Assembly (NCBI RefSeq): GCF_000264995.1
Contig: NW_006767434.1
Span: 2,620,344-2,684,343, forward strand
From: Punctularia strigosozonata HHB-11173 SS5
Taxonomy: Eukaryota > Basidiomycota > Agaricomycetes > Corticiales > Punctulariaceae
Reading direction: 5' to 3'
DNA: 64,000 nt
Shown here: in pieces, positions 39,364 through 63,114 of the stretch
How positions within the stretch are numbered: the first letter of the stretch is position 1
How the letters are laid out: every line of letters starts with the position of its first letter
Program-made: the position numbers and the translations under genes
The notes under the pieces: generated by a model
Told to the model about the DNA's origin: nothing
Database searches by the model: none
The model's input: only the letters and a program-made list of their open reading frames with translations

Positions 39364-41752
39364 TTACTCGTCGACGAAACCGAGCTCGCGAGCGAGTATT
39401 TGCAGTGCCAAGTGCTTGCTGAAAAATCTGGAGTGTTGGAATGCACCTGGCGCGAACCACAATCCAGGTTGTCCTGTCGGGCGGTAACACCTAGTGAGCT
39501 CGCCCTCGGCATCGAGGCCCCAGACCTTGTTTCCAATTTTCTCGGTGATACCAGGTCCAAACAGGTCTATCGCGTTGGTGATGATGGGCTTGTTCCCAGT
39601 CCTAAAGTTTGACATCAGCGACTGGCGCTAGAAGGATCCCTGAGAGTACATACGCAAGAACGACGACGTCGGCTTCAATGCGTGAGTCGTCTGCGAAAAC
39701 AACATGGTTGTCCTCGAAATGATCGATGTCAACGCCGCTCTTGACCTTGATCTTCCCGTCGATGATGGATTGCGCACAACCGAAGTCAAGCACTGCGGAA
39801 TCCGAGCATTAGCTTGGGAGCTGTCGATACGCAACGCCGATACTTACAGGTGCCACTGCTGACTTTCTCGAAGAAGAAGCCAATGAGACCCACTTCACCC
39901 TTACCCGGTTCGACTTCCCATGTTAACCGGAAGCCTTTCTCTCTAAGACCGTCGTGAATATCCTGGTCCATTGCCTTAAGGCGGGCTGTTCCGCCTCCTG
40001 CAGCGAACTTCATCGCCAGCCGGTAAGGCATGCTGTGATTCGCAAAATCGGCGTCCTCTATAGCACGGCTTTCGGCGAAAGCGACGGAAAAGATGGCAGC
40101 GTCTGCGGTGCGCGAGGAGATTACGCATGTCGCTGAGCGTTGTACCATCGTAACCTCGGCGGCACTATGGTTCGGGGAGAGGAAGGACTGCGCAACATCG
40201 CCTGCAGCATTGCACTAATAACACCGTTTGAGCCCGCAATTCGTGATCGATAAGGATGGTATAGTACTCACAGCGCCGACTACTACTGCCTTCTTCCCAG
40301 CCCATTTGTCGAAATCCTTGTGATCATCACTATGATACAGTGCACCCTTGAACGACTCCATGCCTGGCCATGTCGGCATATGTTTTCTGCCGTTTCCAGT
40401 AGCCATGACGATGTGTTTCGGGTTAATGGTGACGATTGTTGACCCTGTTTCTGGAACGGGATTCGGCGTCATAATAGTGGAAGCGCAAATTAGGTCGGGA
40501 GAACGTACGACCGTCTGCGGTCTTGACTGTCCTCTGGATGGCCACCGTCCATCTTCCGGTTTTCTCGTCATACGTCGGGGCCGGATCGGAGAGTACAGTA
40601 GAAGATGTCCACAGGACGAGATTCTGGCCGACTGCATAGGCTTCAAGGAAGTCAGCCACCATGTCCTTCGGCACGAACTTAGGGTACGTTTTCCTATCGC
40701 AGAAGCATCAGTCACCTTGCTCTCGTATGAGGCGCAACGGTAGAAGGCAGCCCACGGGTATGGATGATATAACACTGCGCAGTATAAAATCAATCGATGG
40801 AGAAACGGGCTCGATATGTCCTTACTTACTAGCGCAGTGGTGTGCTGAGGTATGCAGCGACAAGTTCGGGTACCTGTCCATAAAAACCAGATGAAGTTGA
40901 CGGCATTGCACATTATTTCTGGCACTTGCCTTGCACGCCAAACATCGCCCACCCTTGACGACTTCTCTATGACCAGAGCACGAATGCCCAGTTGTTTCAT
41001 ACGAGCTGCACACATCATGCCTGCCTGACCCCCACCCACTACGGAAGAACGAGTCATTGTGGCCACCCGAACGACGCAATGCCATTACTCACCAATCAAA
41101 ACTGTTGGATCTTGTTCGGTACTTGCGATCTGCTGCGCCCTGACTTCGGGCCAAGGTATCTTGTGGCCATCGAAAATGCCCGTTGGACGCTCCTTAGGCT
41201 CTTCATGCCCAACAAAGTCTTCAACATTCAAGAAGAGAGTCAGGGCCTTGTAGCCTGGCCCGCCGTCAGGACCTGGTTGTGACGGATCCGGCACCAGTCG
41301 CACGAGCCCACGCCCGACGCGATCTGGGTTCGCAAGCTTGAATGTGAAGGTGGACATCACCCCGACCACACCGGCAGGGGCGCCAGGGATAGGAAAAGGC
41401 GAAGGAGGACCAAGGCTCGAAGTTGTCTCAATCTTCACATCGCTGAGGCGAGCATGTGCCAAACGTGTCACTGCTTCGCCCTTGCCTTCGCGTGGTTGGG
41501 AGAGATAGGAGGTGATCTTCTCTCGCCCTTCAAGTGAGTGGAAGTCCCACCCAAAACATAGAAGATCTGGACCAGGTTCAGCGATATATGCTTGCCAAAG
41601 AATGCAGACATGCCTCTCATCCATCCTGTAGGTAGAAATAATGCAGCGAGCTGATCGGGATCTGCGCTCGCACCAGCCTTCTCAAGTTGTGCAAGCCAAT
41701 TGGTCGCAATCGCCAGTATGTCTGTCGCAGGTGCAGGTGCGTCGGTCGCCAT
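39364..41752 (-). CDS. Flavin-containing monooxygenase, copy 1
   Basis: FAD- and NADPH-dependent class B monooxygenase; FMO or Baeyer-Villiger-type chemistry on N, S or carbonyl groups, substrate unknown. The start at 41752 gives MATDAPAPATDILAIATNWLAQLEKAG; the first about 190 residues form an NTF2/SnoaL-like extension (LAALFLPTGWMR, DLLCFGWDFHSLEGREKI). Then DPTVLIGGGQAGMMCAARMKQLGIRALVIEK is the FAD Rossmann motif, followed by RVGDVWRARYPNLSLHTSAHHC, YPWAAFY, PKDMVADFLEAYAVGQNLVLW, RPKHIVMATGNG..KHMPTWPGM, the FMO fingerprint-like FKGALYHSDDHKDF, and the NADPH motif KKAVVVGACNAAGDVAQ. The C-terminus is FQHSRFFSKHLALQILARELGFVDE. It contains a GC-AG intron (40874-40929). It is paralogous to the gene at 54.3-56.8 kb, about three quarters identical by eye over the N-terminal domain. 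Confidence 0.9.
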
Positions 41753-43283
41753 GTTTCCCTGAAGGTCTGAGGGACTGAGTGGCTCACAAAGGACTCTGCG
41801 CCTATGAATTTATCGGATTCGAAGTGCCGGCATGCCGCAAGTCGCTGAGCGACAGAAAATGGAACAAGATTAGCAAGACCTCAACTCCCGAGCCCCTGGG
41901 TTGATGCGGACGAGCAGGCAGTGCTCAGAACGGCGCACGGTGCTTGATGCTCGCACTGGGACAGCTTCTGACTGCATGAGAAACATTCCATGGTCATACA
42001 GGAGCCGCAGAGAACCGGCATCGTGATGCACGTACTGCACCGCGCACGAAGAGTGGTCTTCTGTTTATTATGGGGAACGACCTCTGAATCGACTTCTGGC
42101 CCATGTGTTAGATGGTGGAGTTCTTGTGGGATTCGAAATAGAGAATCGTTCGGGCGCTAAATCGCCGATATCCGCGGCTTTGTTGCTTGCGACACGTCCC
42201 AAACCGTACCCTCGGAGAATGCAGCGAAGTCTCAAAGAGTAAACTGGTATGCGTGCGAATTCGTAAGGCTGGGAACCTCAACCAGCTCAGCTGTCGTGCC
42301 GACCGCCGCACGAGCTAGCTCAGGTATGCTACCGTGCGAAGACTCTTCAGTTCGCAATCGCGCGGATTGATCATTGGGTTATCTGTCTTGGTGCCTACTG
42401 CAATCACGTCGAAGAGATGCGAAGACCCCTGCCAGACGTGCATTTCTCATCTCACCCAAATGCTAAAATCAGCTTCGAGCCCTTCACTCGCAGTCTCACA
42501 GGACGGGTAACCAGCTTGTGATCAACCCCCTTCTTGCTTCAAAGATCAGAAATAAATCGATGGTTGGTCTTCTACGCCGGAGGTTGACCATCAGAAATCC
42601 TGCGTAGGCGCCGCACGTGAAGGTGGATGCTCTATCGCTATTTTATATTCTGTACTAAAGCTGGAGTTGTGCATCTATTCTGTGGCTACCGCCCGGTGAA
42701 GGAACGACGCTAGTGAATCCCTAGTTCATGATTGAGATTTCAACTAACCGCGAGCGGTGCCGAGGTGAACACCGCTTGGAAAAACCAGGCTACCGATTGC
42801 CAGGAGCGGGCCCCTAATGATATCTTCAGCAGATTTGATGCAATTCGCTCTTCAGTCGGTCGCTCATACTCAACGGCAACCGGAAAGCAATCGTGACAGA
42901 AGAACGAACTTGTAAATTTAGAGTCAGGCTATGCAATAAACTCACTGCTACATGTGAACCCATCTAACTTCCCCACGTAAGGAAGAGGCATCCTTAAGCT
43001 TTACTAGGCTTCAGTACTCATGACATTCGAATGATTCTACGAATTCTGATGGACTTGAAGGATATGGAACGGCACCGCCGCAGTAACAAAGGGAAAGATA
43101 CGATACACCTTTGATTCCATGCCAAAACATCGGGGCAAAGATAGCAATTCATATGCGCCTGCTCACAGTTGTCGGAAGTTTATACAATCTCCGGGAACAT
43201 CTTCAGACTAAGAAGCAGTACGTATACGTACATAAAAGGGGGTGATGAGGCGCCCCAGACACTACTACTCGAGATCCGCCGAT
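41753..43283. other. Long divergent intergenic region FMO1 / ABM monooxygenase
   Basis: About 1.5 kb with frequent stops in all frames. No coding homology, inverted repeat or long tandem repeat was recognised. Short frames near 42110-42310 look like chance. Confidence 0.5.
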
Positions 43284-43809
43284 ATGAGTGCATCCTGGCA
43301 GCACATCGAGGGCGAGATCGTAATCAATGCTCAGGTGCGCTCCACGGAGCCGTCCAGACATGGGTTGACATAGGGCCGCCACGCGCAGCTGCACGCAAAG
43401 CCGGGTCAGGGTGATACGCTCGCGTCGTGGATCGAGAAGATGAAGGCCTGGGCGAAGGAGAACGAGCCTGGCACGCTCGAGTACACGTTTGCCCGCGATG
43501 CCCCTGACGGTGATGTCTTCGCTACATGGGAGAGATTTAGAGACGGCGACGCGTTGAAGGCGTGAGTGTGGACCACCATTAATACGGTGGCCCATGCTGT
43601 CGCCACTCATGACCAGATGTCCACAGGCATATGACCTCAGACATCATGAACGAGTTCAAGACGCAGAATCTGCTCGCCAAGGTGAGCAACCCATCATACA
43701 TTGATCCCAAACTAATCATCGACAATCACTGACGATATTGGATGCGCATGACGAATAGCCCCCCACACCCTTGTTCTATCATGGCAACATCAAGGGACTT
43801 GAGAAGTGA
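43284..43809 (+). CDS. Small antibiotic-biosynthesis-monooxygenase (ABM/YgiN-like) domain protein
   Basis: Cofactor-free dimeric ferredoxin-like protein. ABM-fold proteins oxidise quinols and polyketide-type aromatics, or act as cyclase-like or stress proteins. Four exons join as MSASWQHIEGEIVINAQ, GRHAQLHAKPGQGDTLASWIEKMKAWAKENEPGTLEYTFARD (in parts), DAPDGDVFATWERFRDGDALKA, HMTSDIMNEFKTQNLLAK and PPTPLFYHGNIKGLEK. The order AKPGQGD - LEYTFARD - FATWERF..ALKAHM is that of the ABM family (Y-x-x-x-R-D, E-x-F/Y, AHM). Total is about 114 residues. All three introns are GT-AG and short. It converges on the thioesterase gene 196 bp away. The reaction cannot be told from sequence. Confidence 0.85.
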
Positions 43810-44005
43810 AGATATCGCGTACACGGTCCGGTCCGAGCAGCAGTATACATATATAAATCGTCCATGATATGGAATGCTTGTATGGGAGTGTTAAAACGTG
43901 GTCCGTGGAGTGCATGAAACCTAGATTAGGGTATAAGCTCCGTGTAACGCACTTAGTGCGTAGCACGGCGGCTGTTGCCAAGTCTATATGTGCAGGATCA
44001 GCTCC

Positions 44006-45229
44006 TCAGAGCTTGGCTTCCTCTCGTCCCTTCTCAATGTGCCTCTTGAGCTTATTGCCCAATGGATGCGCCAGAGTCACCTGCGATGCTGTCGCAAGAC
44101 AGACAGCTTTCTCCCGCCACCCATCTGACTCGGTGCCGGCTCCGATAAGACCGGGAGATGACCAAATCTCGACACATCCGTCGTGCAGACCGTTCCGCAT
44201 GAACTTGCCCACAGAGTATAACCCGACGGATCGCTTGGACGTAGTGGGATCGTCTTTCGGGAACGGAGAGATGAAGTCGATGTGGAGTGCTAGGGTTGTA
44301 TATGAATAATATACTTCATCGCTGCAAGTAGGTCGTTTCAGCCACAGCACGACGTCAGACGGTATTGAGCACAGACCCGATGCCCTTGCCCACTGCGGCG
44401 GAGTACAGATCCGGCGTTCGCCCAAAGACGTCGGAGAAGAAGACGATGAGCGATTGCTCGAGAACCAGATCTTCGTCCGTGAAGTCGAACCACGCCGCCC
44501 ATTCCAAGCCTCCGCCAGCCTCGGGTGGAAGTAGCCCATGCCTTTCGCTGCCCGTGATCAACGTACGGGATCGGGCCTTGTTCCGCTTGAGTGGAGCAGG
44601 GTCGATCGCCCAGTCGACTCTGGTACGGAAACGAGCCTGAGGCATGGTAGGACTGGATATCGCCCGCGACGGATGGTGTGATAACGGGACATGTCGTGCT
44701 AAAGGAGAGCTCGGAGTGATGTTCAACCTGCTGCGTACTTGATCTGGTGGACCATTGGCAGTCGCTCCGGAGCCGAGCGAGCCGAAGATGAACGTGCATT
44801 TGATCCTGACATGACCCTACGTTCCGCAGGCGATGACTTATGGTTGATGGCCAACATATGGCAGAACATACCCTCTGGTGTAGCTCGGCCTCTACGTAGC
44901 GGAAACTACTGCCCTCGGAAAGTGGCCGTGTATGGATTTCGCAAGGGCCGATGGAAACGCCGCGCAGGTAGCTGGCTGAAATATGCAGGATGTCAGGCTG
45001 ATTTCTGCCTTCGTTCGCGTGGTAGGTGGCTTTAGCAACAATGGCCAAAAGATACCCTCCGTGGGGAAAACTATAGGGAACCAAAGTGTTAGGTTACGGT
45101 CAGGTATACCCCACTTATGCCGCACCTATCGTAGCACCATTGAGCATCGACGTCCGCGTCGTAAACGCGAGATCCGTCTGGGCGAGCCTCACGTAGCTTA
45201 GAGCTCGTCGCTATCGACAAGGGGGCCAT
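44006..45229 (-). CDS. Hot-dog fold acyl-CoA thioesterase-like protein
   Basis: Double hot-dog thioesterase family (TesB-like); likely hydrolyses or binds an acyl thioester. The start at 45229 gives MAPLSIATSSKLREARPDGSRVYDADVDAQWCYDR. A short intron leads to FPHGGYLLAIVAKATYH, the N-terminal hot-dog signature, then QPDILHISASYLRGVSIGPCEIHTRPLSEGSSFRYVEAEL, CTFIFGSLGSGATANGPP, a Pro/Ser segment ending FRTRVDWAIDPAPL, and GGLEWAAWFDFTDEDLVLEQSLIVFFSDVF. The second hot-dog continues SYTTLALHIDFISPFPKDD, then RSVGLYSVGKFMRNGLHDGCVEIWSSPG and GWREKAVCLATASQVTLAHP. The intron before SYTTLALHID (near 44330) can be placed in more than one way. It is head to head with the P450 at 45630, with 400 bp between the starts. 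Confidence 0.85.
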
Positions 45230-45629
45230 TCTCGAGTTGTTCGTCCTCACCGGGACCTCCATCGCCGCCCGTAACTAGTAGATCCTGGCATAACGATAGC
45301 TCGTGATTGATACGGAAGAAGCACTATGAGCGCTATCCAGAGAAGAGGCATGGCCGGATTGATGTGTTGGGTCATGGCCATGAGGCAGACCCGAAGAGAG
45401 ATGAGCGCTGCCCCGCTGTGGCTCCGGCGTCTTCCACCAAGCGAACGCGGAAACGAAGACCGAACCGTGAGAATTACGGACCCGCGGGCAGAGCTCGGCT
45501 CTGGGGGCGGAAATCGGGTCGCCGGATTCGGTCGCCCCCGTGTTCGTGTAAAGGACTATTCTCGACGCTCGACGCTCGACGTTAAAGACCCAGAGGGTAC
45601 CAGCATGCGCGGAACTTGGTGCATCAGCG
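45230..45629. promoter_or_regulatory. Bidirectional promoter, thioesterase / P450
   Basis: 400 bp between divergent starts, GC-rich, with several CGG and CCG triplets, including CGGAAACGAAGACCG (CGG-N9-CCG), a spacing some Zn2Cys6 activators use. Next to the P450 are short TCGACGC repeats (near 45560-45582). The zinc-cluster reading is weak inference. Confidence 0.4.
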
Positions 45630-47565
45630 ATGCATCCTTGGACAATCGTCCTCGCGCTTGCGCTGACGGGCTACGTCGTCCGTCATGCTTCCCGCCGGCG
45701 TCGCTCACCTTTACCCCCAGGTGCTTATACCTGCCGGACTGATGCGTTGCCGATGCGCTCATCGTTTTCTCATCTCTGCCGTCTCAGGTCCGAAAGGTCT
45801 ACCATTCTTCGGCATCGCCTCCAAGTTCCCTAAGGACGTGCCGTCGTGGATAACATACTGGAGATGGGGCCGCCAATACGGCTCGCCCATAGTCTACTTC
45901 AAGTTGTTGGGCAAGGATATGCTTGTCATAAACTCGCTCGAAGTTGCAATGGAGCTACTCGACAGTCGCGGCGCGATCTATTCCGACCGCCCGTCGAGCA
46001 CCATGTTCGGCGATCTCCTGGATCGTAGAAACTCCGTCTTCTTTGTAAAGTATGGCAGCGATCGGTTCCGGCAGTATCGCCGATTGCTAAACTCTCAACT
46101 CAACCCGAGAGCGGCGAGCACCTACGTGCCTCTGCAAGTCGAAGAACTGCGCAAATTTCTACGAGGCTTGCTGCGGACACCGGAGAAGTTTCGAGCGCTG
46201 ATCCGACGGTGACCAACAATTCGCACTCTCTTTCCTCAGTTCAGCTCACGGACGTCACCACAGGAACGCTGGTGCGGTCATCCTGAAAGTCACGTATGGC
46301 TACAGTGTAGACAGCGACGACGACCACTTTGTGCGTTTGGCCGATGATCGAATCCGTATATCTGAACAAGCCTCCGCGCCTGGGTGGATGGTCGACTCGA
46401 TACCTATCTGTGAGTTCTTGACCGGAATGTCGAAGAATCCCGGGAGCTGAAACACATACCAGTGAAATATGTCCCATCGTGGTTCCCAGGTGCTAGATTC
46501 AAGCGATTGGCAGCAAAATGGAGAGAGGAGGTCAAGGATCTGTGCCAAGTGCCATTCGCCTGGGTCAAGAACCAGATGGTACGCGAAAGGGTTTCTTTAT
46601 TGTATCGTGTTTGACGTAATTTTTTCAGGCTGCGGGGACTGCGATACCCTCCTTCACCTCGCAGCTACTGTCCGATATCGAGTCGGGTTCGACACCTGGT
46701 GCCTCCGCCGACGAACGCGCAGATCTCATCATGTGGGTCTCGAGTGGTCTGTATGCTGCCGGGACGGATACCACCGCATGCTACATGGCCAACTTCTTTC
46801 TGGCGATGACTCTGTTCCCTGATGTGCAACGTCGGGCACAAGAGGAACTGGATGCACTCCTTGGAGCCCAAGCACCGGGAGAACCAACCAGGCTGCCCGA
46901 ATTTACTGACAGGGGTAGGCTCCCGTATGTCGAAGCTGTCATCAAGGAAATACACAGATGGGCTCCTGCGGGTCCTATAGGCAAGCTTCCTACTATGTCG
47001 CTGGATCCATGGCTAACGTGCGATTCCCCGGTAGCGCTGCCTCATGCAACGACCGAAGATGACCAATACAATGGATATTGGATACCAAAAGGAACTTCCA
47101 TCATCACCAACCGTTGGTAAGAATGACACTCTCCGCCACATCCTATCCTCATCTCTGCAGGGCGATGTTACATGACGAAGACATTTACCCAGACCCGATG
47201 ACGTTCAATCCGGATCGTTTCCTCGAAAAGCCGGAATCCGATTCCGCATTAAATCCTGATCCTGAGACTATGATATTCGGTTTCGGCCGTCGCGCGTGTC
47301 CTGGCGTCTACATGGCCAACAACTCAATCTTTCTTGGTGTAACATCTATACTAGCGACGTTCAACATCTTCAAAGCCTGTGACTCCTCTGGGAAGGAAAT
47401 CAAGCCCGAAGTCAGATTTGCTCGAGCCATTGTCGCGTAAGTCGTGCACTCTCAGCTTTCCTCTGAGTATTCACTGATGATTGCCGGTGGTCTAGTCATC
47501 CCGAGGAATTTCAATGCTCTATTACCCCGCGTTCAGACGCTGCCATCCGACTCATCGAGTCTTAA
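45630..47565 (+). CDS. Cytochrome P450 (O-methylsterigmatocystin-oxidoreductase-like type)
   Basis: Membrane-bound monooxygenase, complete here. MHPWTIVLALALTGYVVRHAS is the N-terminal anchor, followed by RRRRSPLPPG and, after an intron, PKGLPFFGIASKFPK, the proline-rich hinge. Then WITYWRWGRQYGSPIVYFKLLGKDMLVINSLEVAMELLDSRG.IYSDRP, and FRQYRRLLNSQLNPRAASTY (WxxxR-like C-helix). An ILKVTYGYSVDSDDD exon follows. The I-helix is GLYAAGTDTTACYM, ExxR is EIHRW, the PERF motif is FNPDRFLEKPES and the haem loop is FGFGRRACPGVYMA. A last exon HPEEFQCSITPRSDAAIRLIES ends at 47565. All diagnostic residues are intact. It is unrelated in detail to the P450 at the left edge. Its neighbours (thioesterase, ABM, CFA synthase, SDR, FMOs) suggest hydroxylation of a shared substrate. 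Confidence 0.92.
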
Positions 47566-50078: not shown

Positions 50079-52004
50079 TCAACATCTCGTGTTCATCTGG
50101 GCATCGGTGTCAAACCGGCGCGCGAAACAGCCCACATAGCTGAGACTCACGTCGCGTGCAAACACGAGCATGTGACAGGATAGATATCCGTTGGCGAATC
50201 CGGATTCGGCGGAGGGGAAAAGATAGAGCCATTTGCGTTTGAATGCTTCCAGCACTTGCGGGTGCCCTTTGAATTCGGGATGGCCATCTATTATGTCTTG
50301 CTCGATAGAAGGAACATTCAATCGGAAGCGTCGGTTCCACTCCCGCAGTGTTCGAGCGTAGTCTAGGTTGAATGAGGATGAGATATTAGTCTAAAGGCAG
50401 ATGCAAAAGACTGACGAGGTCCGTGATTTTCGACTGCTTCAAGTTGCAGGCGGCCTGAAGTAGCGGAGTTTGCGGCGTTCACAAGGGCGGTAGCGCTAGG
50501 GAGCGCCCCGTTTGGCCACATATAATAACGGCTGAAATCGGGGTTTCTGGTGGACAAGAGGGTTTCACATACATTCAACTTCGTGATGCGGGGAAAACTG
50601 ACTGAAATTCTGTGTAGCGAGCTTCTGGCAGCGTTGAGGAGGTCACTACGGCCGTCGCATTTCTCGGCTTCAGGGCCCAGTCCACCATTGAGAAGTAATC
50701 TTTGTAATGGCGAGTGCCAACATGCTGCGGGAAAATAGAATGATTACTCAGCTCCCTGAGACGGGAAGGAACCACTGACCTCAATCATTTCAATGCTGAC
50801 GAACGCGTCGAACGCCTTCTCAAAGTGCGGAGGCAGTTTGCGGTAATCCATCAGATGGACGCGAATGGATCCCTCCAGCCCAGCTTCCCGGATGCGCTCT
50901 TCTCCGAGCTTTTTCTGCTCCACGGAAAGTGTCAAGGTGTCCACCGTGCATCCAGTCGTGCGGACAGCCTAAGCCATGTCAGGATAACATCGACATTTAG
51001 GGGTTGAAGACGCTCGTACCTCTATGGCGAGTCCGCACCAGCCTGAGCCGAATTCAAGCACCCGATCGCCTTTCTTGATGCCAGCCTTGGCGATCACATG
51101 TTGTATCTTCCGCCTCTGGGCGGCCTCAAGGTCGGAAGACTTGCGGTCGTCAGTGAGGTCTCCGTTTATACCACCCTCCTCGTCGCTCCATAGAGCGCAC
51201 GAATACCTGCGTCGTGGAAGTCAGTTAGGCGCGGTTCGTCGACGAGCGTTGACTGACATCATCTCCTCGCTAAGGAACGCCTGCAGCGGAGGAGTCAGTG
51301 TATTATAGCTATCAAGCTGCGGATGGGACGGCACCTTGAACATGGAATTGGAGCCATCATATCCAGCGACCGCATTCAGTCTTGATCGGGAAGGAGATTG
51401 GCCAAACAGTCCGCTCCAGAACTTGTAGCCAGTAGCAAAGGCATTATAGAACGTCGTTGCGAGTCCACCAAGATTTGGAGCATTGTATATCCATAACTGC
51501 GATCTTTACATTAGCATTGCATACGCCAAAGCATGCCAGAATATTCACGTCGCATATGAGTCGCAAATCTTCTGTCTCGATTTCTCCGAGCATATACGAC
51601 TCGGCGACTGGTCAGAAACATCAGTCATGTTTCGGAACGGAGTGGAAGCATGTCACTCTCACGTACATCCGAGATCATTGGATCTACAAACACGTTAAAC
51701 CTTCGCTCGAATGAATCGTGAGGTATACTGACAGGAATAAACGCGACCAAAACTTCTCACTGCACACAGATATTTGCGCTACCGGGATGGTCTCTGATGG
51801 TTTGCCAAACACATAGGATTGATCACCGTCGTGAATTTCTAGCTGGCCGATCTGGATGCCTTGCGCGAGGACGGATAGGATGTACGACCGAGCTGACGAT
51901 TTGGGTCAATGAAGTTCCTCGACGCTGAATACTCGAGAGATAACGTTACCATAGGATCTGAACCAGGAGGTCAGTCCACGGGGAGCGGCAGGTGCAACGG
52001 TCAT
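50079..52004 (-). CDS. Cyclopropane-fatty-acyl-phospholipid synthase-like SAM methyltransferase
   Basis: Transfers a methylene or methyl group from SAM to a lipid double bond (CFA synthase / mycolic-acid methyltransferase family). The start at 52004 gives MTVAPAAPRGLTSWFRSYG; an intron leads to SRSYILSVLAQGIQIGQLEIHDGDQSYVFG, SEKFWSRLF, and ESYMLGEIETEDLRLICD, matching the CFA-synthase N-terminal domain. Then LNAVAGYDGSNSMFK, YSCALWSDEEGG, the SAM motif I GDRVLEFGSGWCGLAIE, VDTLTLSVEQKKLGEERI, VHLMDYRKLP, and EMIE + HVGTRHYKDYF, the bicarbonate-site EMIEHVG restored across an intron. Later are YYMWPNGALPSATAL, EWNRRFRLN and FKRKWLYLFPSAESGFANGYLSCHMLVFAR. The second glycine of motif I is followed by WC rather than WG. 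The C-terminal 28 residues after FAR are less certain. It is divergent from the SDR. Confidence 0.9.
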
Positions 52005-52662
52005 GTTTGCTGCTCAGGCAAGAATCTATGGATATTCGCGACGGAAGCAGCGGTTGGCTGAGCGCTGATGATCTCCGGGCCTCGCGTCGGATCAAGTAAG
52101 CTACAATGGAGTTCCGTTAACGGTACCGTTATAAGGACTGCAGCATGAGAAAGAACACACTGGTCGTGGCAGTGGGCTCTGGGCGCAGAACGAGGAGCTT
52201 GGCCGGCGGGAGGCGCCTTCTTGAGCAAATGCGAATATTCTGATAGCTTTGGCCACTGCATTGCAGCATGTCCCAAGGGTAGAGCCGGGTTCGCACCATC
52301 ACTGGGATGTTCTTTCCAGAAGACGAAGAGATATAGTTGGAAGCATCGGCGACGGAGTGAGGCTGCACCGCCGGAGAAGCGCGATCATTGCGCGGTGCCT
52401 CGTCCCAGTCACGCTGTGAACGCTCGGGTGAGCCGTGCCGCGATCGTCGTTGCCTGGACGAAGAGCGCGATCGCCAGATGTTGGGCCGGCTTGACCAGTG
52501 CGCAGACCACTGCCACGGCCAGCGCGCTTCCCACGCCAGCCCGCGAGAAGACGTTGCTCTCTATCGCTGATGAGAACAACTCCCCGTTCTGTTCGTCCGT
52601 GATGCTCGGCAACGGCCCTCCACTTTGCCGGTCCCGACACCGGCCTGACCTTGGAGAGCGCC
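52005..52662. promoter_or_regulatory. Bidirectional promoter, CFA synthase / SDR
   Basis: 658 bp between divergent starts. It contains the overlapping palindromes at 52114-52130. No coding homology was recognised, although long accidental frames occur between 52220 and 52660 on both strands because of high GC content. Confidence 0.5.
52114..52130. promoter_or_regulatory. Overlapping palindromic site CCGTTAACGGTACCGTT
   Basis: CCGTTAACGG (52114-52123) is a perfect 10-bp palindrome; AACGGTACCGTT (52119-52130) is a perfect 12-bp palindrome sharing its middle. Together they make three alternating CCGTT/AACGG half-sites. It lies about 110 bp upstream of the CFA-synthase start and 530 bp upstream of the SDR start. 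AACGG resembles a Myb-type core. Role inferred only from symmetry and position. Confidence 0.5.
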
Positions 52663-53968
52663 ATGATGTACCAAGGAAAGACCGCGCTCGTAACGGGTGA
52701 GTAGCGTCGCGTCCGACGTCGTCGTACCGGTCTAAGGCCCGTGTTCTTACAGGCTCTGCGTCGGGGATCGGCGAATACCTGGTCAACCACCTGTACCGTA
52801 ACGGGTACGCCCCGCTGCTACGTACCGAACGCGCATTCAATTCACCATATACATTAGCGCCACCGTCGTGTGCGCGGATATCAGGGAGAAGGAAGTGCAG
52901 AAGGTTGCGGACTCTTTGAACGCGCAAGGGAGCGCAGCTGGCCAGAAAGCGTTTGCCATCTCAGGGGACGTTACCAAATGGGACTCGGTCGTTGGCATGT
53001 TCAAGGCCACCGAAGAACTCCTGAAAAAACACACCGGCAAATCCAACATCAGCTTCGTATTTGCGTACGCCGTTTCGCTTTCACGCACTGCTCATACATG
53101 CCGAACAATCGTGCCCAGCAACGCAGGTGCTGCCGCGATCGGCTTCCCATTCCAAAGGGGCGAACCGAACATTACATCTATCTCAGTCAACCTAATCGGC
53201 GCGCTTTACACCATACAAGGTGAGGCAAACTGCGACATTCCTGCGGGATCCAAGAGGGCTCACACGAAGCAACACAGCTGCGATCAACCACTTCCGCAAG
53301 CACCGCGCGCCGGGCCGCATAATCGTCACAGCTTCTCAATCATCACTCCACCCCTTCGGCGGGGAGCCCATCTAGTGCGTATACTTATTTCCCGGCTAGA
53401 CGCTGTGCATAACCGTTCCTCCCCTGCAGCACGGCTTCCAAGCATGGGGTCCTCGGGCTCGTCCGCGCGACCGCTATCGCGCTTGAGAACGAGAAGAACA
53501 TCACTATCAAGTACGTAGAGACGTGTTCCGTGTTTAGACACGTGTTGTTGACCTCTTCACCGCAGCGCCATAGGACCTGTACATGCATTCCTTCACGTTT
53601 CTTCTCATGAGTCTGACACTGCGAATAGGGCAGCACTGATTCCACCCTGATGCCTGATGTGGTCTTACAAGGCATGAATTCCCGCGGCTGGGCAGTGGAA
53701 AAGGACACCAGTACGTGTCTCTATCTTCATGTTATCCCCGAACCATCCTAATATGTTACTCCTCAGTCATGCGGGCCTTTGACGTCTTCTTGAAGCCCGA
53801 TTCGAAGCTATCCGGTGCCTTCGTGGAGGCCATCGGTGACACCGTCAACCTGTTCGAGTTCCCCTTGCCAAGTACGTACAATTCGTGTTTGTGCCTCAAT
53901 CGATGGTTCTTGACATTCTGATCACACTGGCTACAGCCAAGGACACCGGGTTCAAATGCAAACTCTGA
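52663..53968 (+). CDS. Short-chain dehydrogenase/reductase
   Basis: Classical SDR, NAD(P)-dependent oxidation or reduction of a hydroxyl or keto group. The start MMYQGKTALVTG at 52663 (a second ATG follows at once) leads across an intron to SASGIGEYLVNHLYRNG, so TGSASGIG is the cofactor glycine motif. Then ATVVCADIREKEVQKVADSLN, GDVTKWDSVVGMFKA, NISFVFANAGAAAIG (NAG motif), NLIGALYTIQ, APGRIIVTASQSSLHPFGGEPIYTASKHGVLGLVRATAIALENEKNITINAIGP (read in blocks), with the catalytic Ser and the YxxSK Tyr/Lys intact across an intron. C-terminus VMRAFDVFLKPDSKLSGAFVEAIGDTVNLFEFPLP, then TKDTGFKCKL. D after the second strand (CADIRE) suggests NAD preference. It resembles 15-hydroxyprostaglandin-dehydrogenase-like SDRs. 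It is head to head with CFA synthase and tail to tail with FMO2. Confidence 0.9.
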
Positions 53969-54330
53969 GGCGAGCGCATGCCACGACTTTCACATCATAA
54001 GTCATTGAACATATGTTCCCTTAGGGACAAGATATATTTAGTGTTCGTCGTTGTACATGTGCGATTTGCATACGATGGCTGGAATATAGTCCAATAAATC
54101 ACGGATCGTATTGACTCCCAATAACACGCGAGCCAATCACTGGAACCCGCATGTAAACTCGCATCACATGATGTGACAACGGTTGCAACTGATAGCGAAA
54201 CCGTCTCCAGAGTCGGTTTCAATGTTAGTCGCAGCTGCTTTCATGTTGAGTGACGAATGTGCGCTCCCGGGTGCATCATAGGTTCTAAAACGTTGTCATC
54301 AGCGACCGCGTTCAGAATCCATCCCACGAC
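53969..54330. other. Convergent 3' intergenic region SDR / FMO2
   Basis: 362 bp between two stop codons. No feature was recognised. Confidence 0.5.
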
Positions 54331-56800
54331 CTACTCCGTGTATCCCAGCTCCTGAGCGAGAATTTGGAGCGCCTGTTTTACAATGGAGTGCGACCCTGAG
54401 TACGACTTTCCTTCGAGTGTTAGGGAATACACTCACCAGATGCTTGCTGAAGAACCTTGAATGCTGGAAGGCACCCGGACTGAACCACAAACCGGGTTGC
54501 CCAGTTGGCCGGTAGCACTTGGTCAATTCTCCTTCGGAGTCGAGTCCCCATACCTTGTTCCCGATCTTCTCAGTAACACCGGGGCCGAACAGGTCTGTAG
54601 CACTGGTGATGATGGGCTTGTTTCCAGTTCTAAGATTCGATTCGATTGAGTACCAAATAGTGAAGACGGGGCTAACGCGATGCTTACGCCAGAACCACGA
54701 CGTCGGCTTCAAGACGAGAGCCATCGGCAAAGACAACGGCGTTCTTCTCAAAGTGGTCGATTTCGACCCCGCTCTTGACCTTGATCTTGCCGTCAATGAT
54801 CGACTGCGCACATCCGAAGTCGAGCACTGGAGAGACACCACGAGAATAAGATTGCGCGACAGCGCGTAACAAGACATTGGGACTCACGAGTGCCACTGCT
54901 GACTTTCTCGAAGAAGAAACCGATGAGACCGACTTCGCCCTTACCCGGTTCGATCTCCCACGTCAGGCGGAAGCCCTTCTCGCGGAGGCCGTTATGTATG
55001 TCCTTGTCCATCTCCTTGAGGCGTGCTGTACCGCCGCCCGCGGCGAATCTCATGGCCAGACGGTATGGCATGCTGTGATTGGCAAAATCGGCATCCTCGA
55101 TCGCACGGCTCTCCGCGAATGCGGTAGAGAAGATAGCGGCGTCGGCCGTTCTAGAGGATATTACGCAGGTAGCGGAACGCTGAACCATCGTCACCTCCGC
55201 GGCACCATGCATAGGCGACAGGAAGGACTGCGCAACGTCCGCGGCTGCATTGCACTACGAAAGTGTCAATTCTGCATTGCCATAGGAGAGTTGAGACGTT
55301 CGCACGGCGCCGACAACCACAGCTTTCTTGCCCGCCCATCGTTCGAAGTTCTTGTGGTCGTCGCTGTGGTAGATTTCGCCCTTGAATTTGTCCATTCCGG
55401 GCCATCTCGGTACATTCTTACGCCCATTACCGGTGGCCATTACGATATGCTTGGGACGCGCATGCACTACTCGTGTTTCGGTTCCTAGGCACGTCATGAG
55501 TTGCCGCGCAGCGAGGACAAAGCTGAACGTCTCACGACCTTTGGATGTCTTGATGGTCCTGCGAATTGCAACAGTCCATCGCCCAGTTTTCTTGTCGAAA
55601 GCGGGCGCCGGCTCCGAGAGGACTTCAGAAGATTGCCAGATGACCAGGTTCTGTCCTATGGCATACGCCTCCAGGAAGTCTGCCACCATGTCTTTAGGTA
55701 CAAATTTGGGGTAGGTCTTCCTACGATGCACCAAGCTAAGATTAGTATGACAGATGGGAAAGTGGCGAAGTGCACTCACGGATACGGGTGGTACAGCACT
55801 GTTGAGCAGTTGATTGAGATACACGAGGGGCACAGGTCACATAAAGTTACTCACTCGCACAGTGATGCGCGGAAGTGTGTAGAGATAAATTTGGGTATCT
55901 GTGGACGAGTGCCTTGAGAGACTTCTCATTGAGATACCACAAGAATGATCACTCGCCTTGCCCGCCAGACGTCTCCAACGCGGGCGGATTTCTCTACCAC
56001 AAGGGCGCGAAGTCCCATGCGACCCATCCTTGCGGCGCACATCATACCCGCCTGGCCAGCTCCGACTGTTGACGTAGAGTATTGTATTAGTTACGGAATT
56101 AGTCGTCCGTAGACACGATAGGTCACTGACCAATCAAGACAGTGGGATCATTTTCAGTGTTTGAAATGATCTCCGCTTTCACTTCAGGCCAAGTCTTCTT
56201 GTGTTCGTCCCATATGCCCAGCGGTCGCTCCTTCGGCTCCTCGTGTCCCACGATATCTTCAATGTTCATGAACAGTGTCAAGGCCCTGAAGCTAGGCCCG
56301 CCACCAGAACCGGCTTGCGAAGGGTCAGGCACCAGTCGCACCAGCCCTCGACCCACGCGGTCCGGGTTGGCCAATCTGAACGCGAACGTGGCCATAATCC
56401 CGACTACTCCGGAAGGAGCGCCAGGGATCGGGAAAGGCGAAGGTGGTCCAAGGCTCGAAGTCGTCTCAATCTTCATATCGCTCAGTGCGGCGTATTTCAA
56501 ACGCGTCGAAGGTTCGCCCTTGCCCTCATGATCTTGCGATAGGTAAGACTCGATCTTCTCGCGCCCTTCGAGAGAGTGAAAGTCCCATCCAAAACATAGT
56601 AGGTCTGGGACAGCATTAGTATGGATCATATATGTTGGTCCAACGCACGTACCACGCAACCATCCGGTCGGCAGAAAAAGAGCGGCGAACTGCGCAGGGT
56701 CAGAGCTCGCGCCAGCCTTGCCCAGTCGCGCTAGCCAGCTGTCGGCAATGGTGAGCAATTCGGCGGGCGGAGCAGGTGTGGTGGTAGGGTCCGTAGCCAT
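54331..56800 (-). CDS. Flavin-containing monooxygenase, copy 2
   Basis: Paralogue of the FMO at 39.4-41.8 kb, same strand and same domain order. The start at 56800 gives MATDPTTTPAPPAELLTIADSWLARLGKAG, an NTF2/SnoaL-like part (FAALFLPTGWLR + DLLCFGWDFHSLEGREKIESYLS), IETTSSLGPPSPFPIPGAPSG, then DPTVLIG and the FAD motif, VWRAR + YPNLSLHTSAHHC, PKFVPKDMVADFLEAYAIGQNLVIW, HIVMATGNGRKNVPRWPGM, FKGEIYHSDDHKNFERW, KKAVVVGA, ATCVISSRTADAAIFSTAFAESRAIEDADFANHSMPYRL (in blocks), FGCAQSIIDGKIKVKSGVEIDHF and GNKPIITSATDLFGPGVTEKIGNKVWGL. The end is FSKHL + ALQILAQELGYTE, stop 54331-54333. An intron splits HL/ALQIL here but not in copy 1. A GC-AG intron (55899-55956) is shared with copy 1. Motifs are intact. 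Confidence 0.9.
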
Positions 56801-58732
56801 CGTGGTGTTCTTGGAGGGCGAATCGAGAGCCTCAAGCGTCTACTTCAACCTGCTGCAAATGTGTCAGCCTCATTGCACCCCGTGCAGCACAATATGCCCG
56901 GAGAAGAGAACATGTGCAGGATAAGCACGTCTTGGGATCAATTCTGAGCGATTGAATGAGATCCGGGCATGCGAATAACCGTATGACTGGTTTCATCTCG
57001 TGCCAACGCGGTTTGCACGCTGATGTTGCCCGTGTAGTGACATGCGAGTGAAGCCGGTCGATGCGACTTTCGCAGTGCGAAAGCGTTTGGGTGACGAGCT
57101 GAACGTCCACACTAGCTCGGTTGGGTAGGTGTGATGGGTTAATTCAGGGAAGTAAGCAGTCATCATTTACTTTGCGGCCACAGGCTCGTGCTTCCATTTG
57201 CAGGCAATTCGGCGACTACACAGCCTGTGAAGCAAACATACCGCCACGAGCAGATTCTGAAGATAGTCTTCTGGCCCCAGTCGCCATGCAGTTGATGACA
57301 CGATATGTCAAGGGCTATATATTGTTTGCTCTCGATTTCAGGGAAATAAGGCGGGACTCCGCTATCCAACTTCGGAAAGCTAGGGAAACTGATGATCAGG
57401 CCAAGATGTAGTGCGGAACGGTCTGCATACCCAAACCTACATAATCGTTGGAACATGGTCCGAAAGGGGAGCAGCTTCCATGCCTCCAGTGATACACAGC
57501 ATCGTCTATCGCATCATGTCTTCGTTCACGGAGGCCGGGCAGGTCGGACCTTCAAACTTTGCGATGGAGGGTGGAAGCCAAACTAGGGACTTGAAAGTGT
57601 GATAAACCCGCGCCTGGGAGCCCGCGGTGTTACGTCGCACAATCTGCGGATACGCAGTCAGCGGAGACGACCAGTCGCGAGTGAATTGACAAGCTGGATG
57701 GCCACACGCTCAAAGTCGTGACAATGCTCGGGCGCTTATTTATCGTGCTGGTCGTCATTCCCACACTGCTTCCACTGACTCACTCCTGACCATCTAACGC
57801 ATTAACATCCGTGATTGGCAGCGAGCTCACACTGCATCGTGGCGTAAACGGGGGCGCTCATGTCCGTCTTGTGATCACCTTCTCCACTTCCTTGGGAGAA
57901 AGACGATAATAGCAAGGTGCTGTCGCTTCAGCTTCGCTGGTTGCACATGGAGCAGTCCGGTCACTTGCACAAACAGTGCGCTCGTAAATGATAGGCCACC
58001 GGGTCGTGACTAGACTACCGTCAACACCATCCAATGAGAGAAGAGCGGAATGGCTCCTTCCAGCCCGGGAAAGCAACGCGACAGGAGGCGCCCGAAATAG
58101 CCCATTCCAGCTGGAATCGGACATTGCGGCCAGGTGACGCGCGAATCGCTCGTTTTCCTGAGTTTGTCCGCGTGTACAGCAATCGCGCGTCCTCAGTAGA
58201 CGGAACGACTGCGAACGTAGCAGTGCTCGGACGCGCTTAGGTTTTCTTGTGGAGGTTGTGTTCAGCCTGAGGTACGGTCAAATGGGACTCCCGTGTTCAT
58301 TGTTCAATTATTTCCAGGCATTCAGTAACAAGACAACCATCACACCGTTTCTGTGATGATGACGTGCGAAAGGCATGCAGTTTTGCTCAAGGTTTTATTC
58401 TCGCACCGGCGGATTCGCGACATGATAGCAAGTTACGGCACCGACCAGCGCCCATTTCAGCCGTCCTGATGATCACGTCCCCAAACACTCGGTTCTAGGA
58501 ATTGATGTGAACCCCTCCAGTTAGCCTTGCAACCTGGGGACTGCTTCCGTTGCGCGCGTGGAGACACGCTTATGTCCCTCTCACGCGAACTTCGCCAGGA
58601 CCCGTACCACAGCCTCCGACTGAGAAGGATTGGTCCAAAGGCTTGCTTTTAGTTCTACGTTGTTTGGAGTTGGTGCAGACTAGCTGCCTCCGAACTTTCC
58701 TTGCCCTTGTTAGCAAGCGAGGTGTACCAGTC
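56801..58732. other. 1.9-kb divergent gap FMO2 / DUF6534 gene
   Basis: No recognised gene. Small frames (57392-57602 plus, 57858-58124 minus) lack known motifs. No long repeats were seen. The size is unusual compared with the 330-890-bp promoters of the left half. Confidence 0.5.
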
Positions 58733-60208
58733 ATGTCCGCACCACCACCTCCAGCACCTCCGCTCCCGAGCTTGGGACTCACGCTCGGTGCCCTTTATGT
58801 CGGAGTCATCGTCTCCGTATTGTAAGTATGGTTTTCAGTTGTAGATGGAATGAACGGGAGGATGCAATACTATGTACCCGTTTGTGTTAGTCACAATCGT
58901 TCACACCTTGGTTTTCAGCTTGTTCGGTATAGCAACGCTGCAGACGTACAATTACTATGTCAACTTCCCCACGGACAAGATGCGATTGAAGGCGCTGGTA
59001 AGTCAAATCCCGTGCATGGTGCCTTCTCAAATTCACCATCGTCGATTAGGTGGGCGGTCTTTGGGTCATGGACGCCTTCCACTGTGCGATTATAGCGCAT
59101 GCCGCGTACCATTACGCCATCGCCAACTATTTCAACCCAGCGGTCCTGGAGTTCGGCGTCTGGTCGCTCGACATTGGCACCGTGGTCACGGCGATTGTAG
59201 CGTGCACCTGCCAGGCGTTCTTCACCGTACGGGTATGGGTCCTCGGCAAGAACTACATCGTGACGGCGGTGTGCGCGATCCTGTGTTTGCTCAGGCTGGT
59301 CCTCAGCATCGTCACGACGTACGGCTCGCTTCACATTCGCGACGTCGCCGTTTATGAGAAGAAATTCGGCTGGAGTATCCGTACAGGGTATGTCTTGAAT
59401 AATCGATCGTTCATAGTCCTCGCTGACGTCCGGCTCAGTCTCGGCGTTGCAACTGCCGCCGACGTGTGCATAGCGGCAGCTCTTGTTTACTATTTGTCAC
59501 GAAACCAGACGGCGTTCGCGAACACCAAGCGCTTGATCCAGCGGATGCTCAGTGAGTGGACCCGGCGCCCTGCATCAATTGGTAGCTCATCACGCCGCAG
59601 CTTTCACGATCGAGACATGCTTAATCACTTCGACGGTCACCGTCATTGATATCATTTGCGTAAGTGATTGACACTCACTGGGCGTTGACCGTCGACTGAC
59701 GTTGAGCCCTCGTATAGTTTGCCACCATGCCCGACAACTTTGTGTTCTTGGGCCTTTACTTCTTAGTGTCCAAGCGTCAGTTTATTTTGTTCCGTCGATG
59801 AGATGACGCCGCCTCAATGAATTTGTCAGTGTACTCGAACTCGCTGCTGACTTCACTCAATGCCCGTCAAAGCTTCAGGGAGGGCCATACCGGCCCCTCA
59901 CGCTTGACCACGGGCACCAGCGGCGTCGGAATCACGACGGGCACATACATTAACCGATCCAACCCATATGTAGGACATCGTGCTTACGCGTGCTATTCGT
60001 CAGTTGACGTTGTGTTCAGTCTTCAAAGATGTATGGCTCTGATATCAAGAGCGACCCGGATCCGATGGATGTTAGTGCAGGCGAGACCGTCACCGTGGGC
60101 GCTATCGAGTTGTCGGATGCCCGTAAGGTGAGATCCTCCGAGCTTTTTGTCAACGGTCATGCTAAACGTTCTCTCCAGTATCAGCCCCCGTCGCAATGGC
60201 ATGAGTGA
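58733..60208 (+). CDS. DUF6534-type multi-pass membrane protein
   Basis: Basidiomycete-expanded family of seven-helix proteins with unknown function. MSAPPPPAPPLPSLGLTLGALYVGVIVSVL, then LFGIATLQTYNYYVNFPTDKMRLKAL, VGGLWVMDAFHCAIIAHAAYHYAIANYFNPAVLEFGVWSLDIGTVVTAIVACTCQAFFTVRVWVLGKNY (read in blocks), ILCLLRLVLSIVTTYGSL, LADVRLSLGVATAADVCIAAALVYYLSRNQTAFANTKRLIQRML, FTIETCLITSTVTVIDIIC, FATMPDNFVFLGLYFLVSK and LYSNSLLTSLNARQSFRE. The order QTYxYYxxFPxD - LHxxFxxHALYxY - NYFNP - VWSL - SRTxF..TDxLIxRL - YSNSLLATLNxR is the family pattern. The cytosolic tail ends SDARK and then either YQPPSQWHE through a 51-nt intron or a 17-residue longer read-through. Confidence 0.88.
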
Positions 60209-61006
60209 TTTGTACCGACTACTATACCTACTCAACCAGCGAGCTCTCGACTGGTATGAGTGTAACAGATCGACGGCCTTATACCATAACCACTTGTTTC
60301 CACCTTGCCGCTTTATCCGGCCGAGTTGAAGCCAGGGGCTCATATGCTATTCTCGGATGTCCCAGTTTGTCACTCCTTAACGCGGTGACGATCGCTGTAC
60401 CTACAGCTCCGCGGGTTACCCGCTACTGTACCATATAGTATATTTATTGGTTCTCCCATGTCACTGTCTGGAGGTGGGATTGGGTAGAACCCGAATTGGG
60501 CATCAAACGGTGTGTTCAATGCCAATGAAGCCAACTTGGTTTTCGGTCCTAAAATTGCCCCGACAGACGCTGGCCGTCACGGAGCTCTCGCTTATCGTTG
60601 CCGGTATGCAGTGAAGGGCGCTGAGCCTGCGCCGGCTGATCTGCATGAGCTGAGCTGCTCAGCTCACCGGAGCGAACCGAGGGAGCATCTCGGCGATCAA
60701 CGTAATAAGCCGGCACGCGGGTGATGAAATGGAAGCCCGGTTACGTCAGAACACCCGGGCTACGCTCTCCCATGTCTTGCTATCTTAAGACACAGCAGTG
60801 AACAGCGATCTGGTTCTGAGGATGGCCGGGCGTCTGTCGAATTCATTCCGCCGCGCGGCACCCACGCCCCGCTCTGTGCCATCGCCGTGCCCGCCGCCTC
60901 GAGCACAGTAGGTGCCAGGGAGGTTCAACGGAGCCCCAGGACTGGCACCCGCTCTTCGCGTCCCCCACCACCGACGACGAGCGTCGAACGCGACGAAAAA
61001 GACGTC
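60209..61006. other. Gene-free stretch upstream of the MFS gene
   Basis: About 800 bp between DUF6534 and the MFS transporter. It holds the 21-bp palindrome at 60646-60666 and no recognisable gene. Confidence 0.5.
60646..60666. repeat. Perfect 21-bp palindrome (10-bp arms, one-base centre)
   Basis: TGAGCTGAGC, one T, then GCTCAGCTCA, its exact reverse complement. Each arm is itself built from TGAGC repeats. It lies about 340 bp upstream of the MFS start. It could bind a dimeric factor or be chance. Confidence 0.7.
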
Positions 61007-63114
61007 ATGTCTGAGCAAACCACCAACTCTCTCGACTCGACGCCCATCGTCTCCGAAGCCGGGCAGAGCAAGACGGCGGCAGCGGACGTGGAGAAATCGC
61101 CGGTCGAGCCTGCAGCGCCTGCGCCACCTCCTGCCCTTGACTTCCCTGACGGCGGCTTTCGGGCATGGCTCACTGTCTGTGGCTCGTCAGTGTCGTTGCA
61201 TCGGCGCTCTTTTTGTGCTCTGATGATTGACTTCGTACACGGTTGTGCAGGTGGTTTGCTCTCTTCGCGACCTTCGGGTGAGCTTCCTTGGTCCGATCGT
61301 GATGAAGGTTTGGTGCTCAAGGCACGCAGCTATATCAACGCGTTCGGAGTATATCAAGGTTTGTCCTGACCTCTCCTCTTTAAGCATGACTTGAACGCAA
61401 CGGTCAGATTATTACACCCGCATATATCTCAATAATGTCTCCGCGAGCACCGTCAGCTGGATAGGCAGCTTTCAGTTCTTTGTTCCTCTCATCATGGGCC
61501 TCTGGGCTGGGAGGCTGTTCGACGGCGGCTACTTCCGACCCATGATGCTCATAGGATCCTTGCTGTTCACGTTCTCGTAAGGCATGCTACACAGAGACGA
61601 AGTCGCCTTCGCTGATGGGCCATCCCAGTTTATTCATGCTCTCTTTAGCCAACAAGCATCAGTACTATCAGGTTCAGCATCGTCACACCTTGAGGTTTCA
61701 CAGCGCTAACCTCGAGTATCGTTTTTCTCGTAGGTGTTCCTTGCTCAAGCGGTCGGTATGGGTTTGGGCCTCGGTCTCGTCTTTACGCCTTCTGTTAGTA
61801 TACCCACCCACTACTTCCGTCGGCGGAGAGCCTTGGCTTCAGGTATCGCACTGAGTGGGTCATCCGTCGGCGCAATCATCCATCCCATTCTCTTGAAGTC
61901 AGTGTTCAGTGCTTCATGGCGCCGTTATAATGCGTGTTCATGTCTTCTCGCAGTCAACTGTTCTCCAGAATCGGATTTCACGGCGCCGTGCGCGCCAGTG
62001 GATATATGATCCTTGGATGCCTAGTGATCGCCAACCTGACGATGCGGACTCGTATCCCACCGAGGAAGGCAGGCGGACCGATGCCCACGAGTCTCAAAAC
62101 GCTTTTCAGTGATGTAGCCTATGTGCTCACTATCACGGGGTGAACCTGGCCCGCCTATGATATGCCAATCTTGCGCTCACTACATCATCCAGATCTTTCT
62201 TCTGTCAGATCACGGTGTATTTTCCTGGTTCGTCTATCACATCCACGATAGCCAATTGCGCTGTGATTTCACCCTCTTCTTCACAGCATTCTACATCCAA
62301 CTCTACGCAGTAGAACACGGCGTCGACCTCAATCTGGCCTTCTATTCCGTAAGCTATCCATCGGTACCGCATACATCCTCCGACCGACAGTATCTCCAGG
62401 TAGCGATCCTCAATGCTGGCAGCGTCATCGGCCGTATTTTACCCAACTTCTTCGCAGACAAGATCGGCCCGTTTAAGCTCGTCATCCCGTGCACGATCAT
62501 CTGCTCAGGACTGATGTTCTCTCTACTTGGTATCAAGTACGCGAACGGCTTTCCTGTTCCAGTCATGATCGTAACGCATACCGTTACTTGGTAGAAACAC
62601 AGGCTCTATGGTCGCAGTCGCCGCCGTCTATGGAATTGCATCGGGAGCATGTGCGCCACACCTCTGAATCTTAGCCCTCCATATGTCATGAGCGTTGATG
62701 ATCTCTCCTGCAGATCTCGCGCTCATCGTAGCCGTTGTCGCGTCGCTCTCGCGTAGCCCAGCCGAGATTGGGTACGTTGATCTCGATCATCCGATCTTAT
62801 GCTTAGCGAGATCTGCACTGAGCTGATTACCACGCTTGTCACCTCGTAATTTACCAGATTGAGGGTGGGCGTCGCGTTCTCGACAAACAGCTTCGCTGCG
62901 CTCGTTGGCATCCCCATCGCGGGTGCCCTGCTTGGTACCGGAAGCACGAATGACCTTCACTGGACGAGGGCTATCATATTCTCATGCGTGCGTGCCTTGT
63001 CCTGCTGGTGATCGCCCTGGGCGAACTCAAATGTCCATGATTTAGGTGTGCGTTGCGGTGGGCGCCGCTTGCTTCATCGCCGCGGCGTGGCATGCGTCTA
63101 CAAGGCGTAAATAG
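61007..63114 (+). CDS. MFS transporter, monocarboxylate/riboflavin (MCT/Mch) type
   Basis: Twelve-helix major-facilitator protein of the plasma membrane. MSEQTTNSLDSTPIVSEAGQ and a Pro/Ala-rich N-terminus (PAAPAPPPALDFP) precede DGGFRAWLTVCGSWFALFATFG, the family's first-helix motif, then YINAFGVYQDYYTRIYLNNVSASTVSWIGSFQFF, GLWAGRLFDGGYFRPMMLIGS, FLAQAVGMGLGLGLVFTPSVSIPTHYFRRRRALASGIALSGSSVGAIIHPILLNQLFSRIGF (read in blocks). After a loop: FFCQITVYFP + AFYIQLYAVEHGVDLNLAFYSVAILNAGSVIGRILPNFFADKIGPF, LVIPCTIICSGLMFSLLG, GSMVAVAAVYGIASGA, ALIVAVVASLSRSPAEIG and a last helix ending AAWHASTRRK. All motifs are present; several introns of 50-110 nt were placed by eye. Position at the cluster edge suggests substrate or product transport. 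Confidence 0.9.

Follow-up and report, generated by a model that had tools for sequence, protein, structure and literature searches.

A nine-gene run of tailoring-type genes in Punctularia strigosozonata: a possible backbone-free oxidative cluster

We analysed a 64,000-nucleotide stretch of the Punctularia strigosozonata HHB-11173 SS5 genome (the window; bases 2620344-2684343 of contig NW_006767434.1, here C2, which measures 2.9 Mb in a genome of 33.6 Mb and 32 contigs) that carries nine consecutive genes of tailoring type at window positions 39364-63114. Tentatively, we read this run as an accessory oxidative cluster of an agaricomycete, one that would modify a preformed small molecule (a ketone, alcohol or acyl-CoA) rather than build one, in a host that is probably a white-rot fungus. 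If the genes act together, they form a metabolic cluster that would escape mining keyed on backbone enzymes and that connects three families about which little is known, namely fungal type II flavin monooxygenases (FMOs), the expanded cyclopropane-fatty-acid (CFA) synthase-like methyltransferases of mushrooms and the proposed DUF6534 receptors; the run supplies concrete genes for probing the function of each. New here are the recognition of the FMO pair as type II paralogues with two threonine changes, a threonine/serine site in the CFA-like protein that is common to six paralogues, the placement of the DUF6534 protein in a proposed class of G-protein-coupled receptors (GPCRs), the arrangement in four divergent pairs, and the finding that promoter words are shared without excess.

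Gene models were obtained with a self-trained splice-aware predictor, their splice sites were then checked by hand, and Pfam was run on the whole spliced proteins of all nine genes. The final models contain no internal stop codon and are ordered FMO1 (-), ABM monooxygenase (+), thioesterase (-), cytochrome P450 (+), CFA-like methyltransferase (-), short-chain dehydrogenase/reductase (SDR, +), FMO2 (-), DUF6534 protein (+) and MFS carrier (+). All nine family matches were confirmed, in agreement with a preliminary description of this DNA, whose outer limits for the run, 39364 and 63114, coincide with the predicted gene ends. Its claim that no housekeeping gene interrupts the run also held, and no further gene was found, in the three gaps tested (41753-43283, 47500-50100 and 56801-58732), where low-threshold prediction gave no full gene longer than 60 residues, gap 60209-61006 not having been searched separately. 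Ten open reading frames compared with Pfam (nine from the gaps 47500-50100 and 56801-58732, one across the 3' end of the CFA-like gene) gave no match below 0.01.

The run was also said to lack a polyketide synthase, non-ribosomal peptide synthetase or terpene synthase, and family searches are in line with this. Terpene_syn_C_2 (PF19086) has 14 exon matches genome-wide, none of them on C2, in a search that covered this one terpene-cyclase family, and ketoacyl-synthase (PF00109) has 15 matches, again none on C2. The closest of 18 listed AMP-binding matches (C2:2413438-2414139) is separated from the cluster by about 245 kb and lies some 206 kb to the left of the window; this search scored 14 of 47 candidates, leaving room for a weaker, nearer match. 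Within the families searched, the run lacks the backbone gene, in or beside it, that defines a canonical fungal biosynthetic gene cluster. Backbone-free fungal clusters include those for kojic acid, itaconate and ustilagic acid, in which tailoring enzymes and a transporter act on fatty acids or primary metabolites. The present run resembles these in joining tailoring enzymes to a transporter and differs in that no pathway regulator is seen in it; we know of no backbone-free cluster with the same gene content, and a literature search, mostly short of full text, yielded no recognised description of this nine-gene set.

FMO1 (39364..41752, minus strand, 10 exons, 630 residues; Pfam FMO-like E=1e-20) and FMO2 (54331..56800, minus strand, 11 exons, 632 residues; Pfam FMO-like E=4e-22) lie 15 kb apart in the same direction and are identical at 521 of 629 residues (83%). 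They are mutually closest relatives among the matches listed; the other FMO genes matched in both domains, on C24, C14 and C1, share 36-57% identity over the matched exon stretches, and weaker matches lie on C17 and C19. The two copies have diverged by a dN of 0.11, and their synonymous sites are saturated (pS 0.75), which indicates that both stayed under purifying selection. A segmental duplication wider than the FMO genes was considered and rejected, since long direct repeats are confined to these genes.

The nearest solved relative of FMO1 is 8acs_A (E=2e-84), with aligned segments at residues 14-70 (i-Evalue 1.4e-4) and 153-626. This is JsFMO (PDB 8ACS), a Baeyer-Villiger enzyme from Janthinobacterium svalbardensis that belongs to the type II FMOs and has a SnoaL-like N-domain; according to the accessible part of its description (PMC10028610), it oxidises ketones and sulfides. 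Aligned to JsFMO, the window pair has the predicted two-domain architecture of type II FMOs, of the bacterial kind; Pfam returned no SnoaL/NTF2 match to the N-domain, which is assigned from the 8acs_A match only. Like JsFMO, the window proteins combine an N-terminal extension with an FAD/NADPH monooxygenase domain and have equivalents of the catalytic His216 and the structural Arg571; they differ in being eukaryotic and duplicated, and in having threonine for both Tyr458 (at query 505) and Asp217, in a mapping whose numbering offset of 16 is deduced from matching residues. In the same partial source, Tyr458 is conserved across the type II FMOs with an N-terminal extension investigated so far, the substitutions D217A and Y458F each roughly halve JsFMO activity, and no tested residue is essential (PMC10028610). 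FMO activity is therefore plausible and Baeyer-Villiger chemistry is not assured, the two threonines making ketone oxidation by the pair uncertain. We predict that both proteins are oxygenases, plausibly acting on ketones or, equally, on sulfides, and the earlier proposal of a lipid substrate is not supported. By eye, position 458 is Tyr in the C24 paralogue and Phe in that on C14.

Intron borders in the run are GT-AG, with additional GC-AG borders in FMO1 and FMO2. Three introns of the pair have GC 5' borders (41567-41613, 40874-40929 and 55899-55956), and the intron that follows WRAR begins with GC in both genes. Elsewhere in the genome, the type II FMO paralogue at C14:460592-465628 adjoins a convergent gene that looks on inspection like a P450 of another kind.

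The CFA-like gene (50079..52004, minus strand, 12 exons, 444 residues) encodes a CMAS domain (PF02353, E=2e-52; 178.4 bits against a curated cut-off of 27) together with an N-terminal domain. Residues 57-390 align to the E. coli CFA synthase 6bqc_A (6BQC; E=8e-32), which the protein resembles in its CMAS domain and N-terminal part and in keeping Cys139, Glu239 and Tyr317 (in YSCALW, MIEHVG and HYARTL). It differs at the bicarbonate site, where His266 is replaced by Thr and Ile268 by Ser. Eight paralogues from the 11 other PF02353 loci were aligned; Gln and Ile occupy these positions in two of them and the Thr/Ser pair recurs in the remaining six (the gaps nearby stem from rough gene models), so that the window protein is one of seven of this kind. 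The His of the HYD motif is replaced as well, by Gly in the window protein and by Gly, Ser or Ala in six related paralogues.

As far as the partly accessible reports go, the bicarbonate ion of E. coli CFA synthase is bound by Glu239, His266 and Tyr317, and the enzyme is less active once the ion or its ligands are lost (PMC11387697, PMC3132707). Cotton has members of the family in which Gln replaces His266 and which are described as cyclopropane synthases (PMC3132707), and no example of Thr at position 266 was met in the available portions of this literature on the bicarbonate site (PMC3132707, PMC11387697). Given the two replacements, methylation is a safer inference than cyclopropanation, and S-adenosylmethionine (SAM)-dependent methyl transfer is the safest activity to predict for this protein. 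The preliminary description had envisaged a lipid cluster whose enzymes methylate or cyclopropanate an unsaturated acyl chain and also oxidise it. The CMAS domain, the N-terminal part aligned to the E. coli enzyme, the three retained residues and the acyl-CoA thioesterase-type protein nearby speak for such a pathway, but the altered positions 266 and 268 and the lost HYD histidine speak against it, and we regard it as very unlikely. The gene run itself is sound; what is weakened is its lipid or cyclopropane interpretation, and cyclopropanation by this enzyme is unsupported. A CFA-synthase homologue of Coprinopsis cinerea, cfs1, is required for fruiting (Liu 2006, as cited in the accessible part of PMC4082614).

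The remaining enzymes are of more general type. The P450 (45630..47565, plus strand, 7 exons, 535 residues, splicing checked by hand) matches PF00067 (E=1e-59), and the SDR (52666..53968, plus strand, 260 residues; PF00106, adh_short, E=2e-31) contains the motifs TGxxxGIG and YxxxK. An acidic residue after its second strand presumably marks a preference for NAD, which suggests the oxidation direction. The ABM-domain protein, a small monooxygenase (43284..43809, plus strand, 109 residues; PF03992 E=1e-10), has nearest solved relatives that bear no functional name, and the 4HBT_3 hot-dog acyl-CoA thioesterase-like protein (44006..45229, minus strand, 318 residues; PF13622 E=8e-17) has one solved relative, a weak one (3BBJ, E=6e-4). 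NCBIfam gave nothing above cut-off for FMO1 and the SDR among the best 25 matches listed, and no match at all for the thioesterase and the ABM protein. The MFS carrier (about 61007..63114, plus strand, 447 residues; PF07690, MFS_1, E=5e-27) has an uncertain 5' end (predictor start 60724), its model being one picked among 27 stop-free splicings.

The membrane protein at 58733..60208 (plus strand) matches DUF6534 (PF20152, E=2e-23; 83.6 bits against a cut-off of 28.2). Work on Agaricomycotina has put DUF6534 forward as a new class of GPCRs and reports an association with biosynthetic clusters for Pth11-like and Class 12 receptors (available portion of PMC12842992). A role as a pathway enzyme is therefore not supported; the protein shares the PF20152 domain with those candidate receptors and differs in that it adjoins an enzyme run. 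Elsewhere in the genome, three of 23 listed DUF6534 places (C4:688-692 kb, C7:369-373 kb and C6:1456-1468 kb) have related P450 exons no more than 5 kb away, with 0.33 expected under random placement, which could reflect a receptor-enzyme pairing or simply shared accessory regions. P450 and CFA-like genes within 10 kb (one of 11 listed places, 0.32 expected) and DUF6534 and CFA-like genes (one of 11 listed, 0.17 expected) are not unusual; all these counts are post hoc, come from incomplete match lists and exclude the window's own cluster. A self-contained make-and-sense unit, in which the altered-site CFA-like methyltransferase and the Tyr-less FMO pair of a backbone-free pathway would act on an acyl or ketone compound and the run's own DUF6534 receptor would read the product or substrate, is in our judgement improbable.

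For the accessory oxidative cluster that we tentatively favour, the order of steps may be as follows. The P450 would hydroxylate the substrate and the SDR would turn the resulting alcohol into a ketone; the two type II FMOs could then oxygenate the ketone (Baeyer-Villiger) or sulfur, each with a separate substrate or step. The CFA-like enzyme would C-methylate an alkene or acyl chain, the ABM protein would oxidise an aromatic or quinol intermediate, and the thioesterase would cleave an acyl-CoA. The MFS carrier would transport substrate or product, either of which the DUF6534 protein may sense.

The same enzymes could instead serve catabolism or detoxification, with the MFS carrier importing terpenoids or aromatic acids that come from wood or from competitors. 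These would be hydroxylated and converted to ketones, for cleavage by the FMOs and release by the thioesterase. P450, SDR and Baeyer-Villiger-type FMO is a classical order of ketone degradation, no backbone enzyme would be required, and a manganese-peroxidase-like gene 10 kb to the right gives a hint of wood decay, even though its distal His is Val. A CFA-family methyltransferase has no obvious role in breakdown, however, and we recognised neither ring-cleavage nor beta-oxidation genes among the nine; we consider this explanation rather unlikely.

Whether the nine genes belong together at all was examined through their company. Look-alikes of the nine proteins made up one of 36 genes in 16 arbitrarily placed 10-kb loci (score >=20; phmmer E<=0.01 throughout), one of 17 genes (score >=10) in the left flank and none of six in the right, in a comparison whose families were defined by the run itself and whose single-sequence phmmer searches missed an MFS-like gene in one locus (L014) and a right-flank P450. 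Several of the families are scarce, the places listed in the 33.6 Mb being at least two for ABM, at least three for 4HBT_3, at least five two-domain-matched FMO genes at no fewer than four loci, and at least 12 loci for PF02353. Under random placement, a thioesterase and an ABM gene came within 2 kb of each other in 162 of 200,000 trials, and thioesterase, ABM, FMO and CFA genes fell together inside 20 kb in 0 of 200,000; because the families were picked after the run was seen, and because this test ignores the general clustering of fungal accessory genes, which are non-randomly placed, these numbers show unusual company and not a shared pathway.

The layout is also regular. Eight of the nine genes form four divergent pairs, FMO1/ABM (intergenic region 41753..43283), thioesterase/P450 (45230..45629, 400 bp), CFA/SDR (52005..52665, 661 bp) and FMO2/DUF6534 (56801..58732), and the strand switches at seven of eight steps in the run against eight of 18 to its left (P about 0.017 at the left-hand rate).

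Several observations weigh against a shared pathway of the favoured kind, among them the two threonines of the FMO pair described above. The two CFA paralogues nearest in sequence (66% and 56% identity) stand amid unrelated genes in their 10-kb loci, and CFA-like and FMO genes are thus not an obligate pair. Among five upstream regions, 11 exact 8-mers are common to at least three against 13.2 in random sets, one 8-mer occurs in four (24% of random sets reach the same) and shared 9-mers number 0 against 4.5 at random, so that 8-10-mers overall show no excess; the test dealt in exact rather than degenerate words, with random sets drawn from all sequence. Finally, no transcription-factor gene was seen within the nine-gene run. 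The missing excess of promoter words and the setting of the two CFA paralogues would suit a loose neighbourhood in which unrelated accessory genes gather in the same genome regions with no common pathway, as would the peroxidase, aspartic protease and P450 (by inspection) that are located up to 30 kb away on the right-hand side, past predicted housekeeping genes. Against this stand the sparseness of the run's families elsewhere and the adjacency of rare ones, with the caveats given for both tests, and we consider such a neighbourhood rather unlikely.

No second complete cluster was found genome-wide, and the run's paralogues are mostly scattered: those of the FMOs on C24, C14 and C1, those of the thioesterase on C6 and, by family search, C1, that of the ABM protein on C10, and those of the CFA-like protein at the 11 other loci. 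A partial look-alike at C6:1453804-1471869 brings P450, alpha/beta hydrolase, DUF6534, CFA-like and MFS genes close together, its CFA paralogue being 43% identical to the window protein.

The surroundings were judged by inspection of predicted proteins. The left 39 kb had been described as almost only housekeeping, which is mostly so, but a partial P450 (891-1607) and RTA1-like, alcohol-dehydrogenase-like and glucoamylase-like genes are also there. The P450-like gene extends over the window's left edge (about -818 to 1607) amid housekeeping genes and was predicted as two pieces. On the right, beyond 63 kb, come an SNF2-type helicase and a mitochondrial carrier, followed within 30 kb by a kinase-like protein, an aspartic protease, a manganese peroxidase, a zinc-finger protein and a P450. 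The mitochondrial carrier (65223-66345, about 2 kb past the cluster, which itself contains a SAM-dependent enzyme) resembles an S-adenosylmethionine carrier and is probably ordinary. The manganese-peroxidase-like gene is long (C2:2693396-2694701; 73053-74358 in window numbering) and aligns with the whole solved chain of 1MN1 (E=7e-158), reading RLAFVDA where 1MN1 has RLTFHDA, with Val in place of the distal His.

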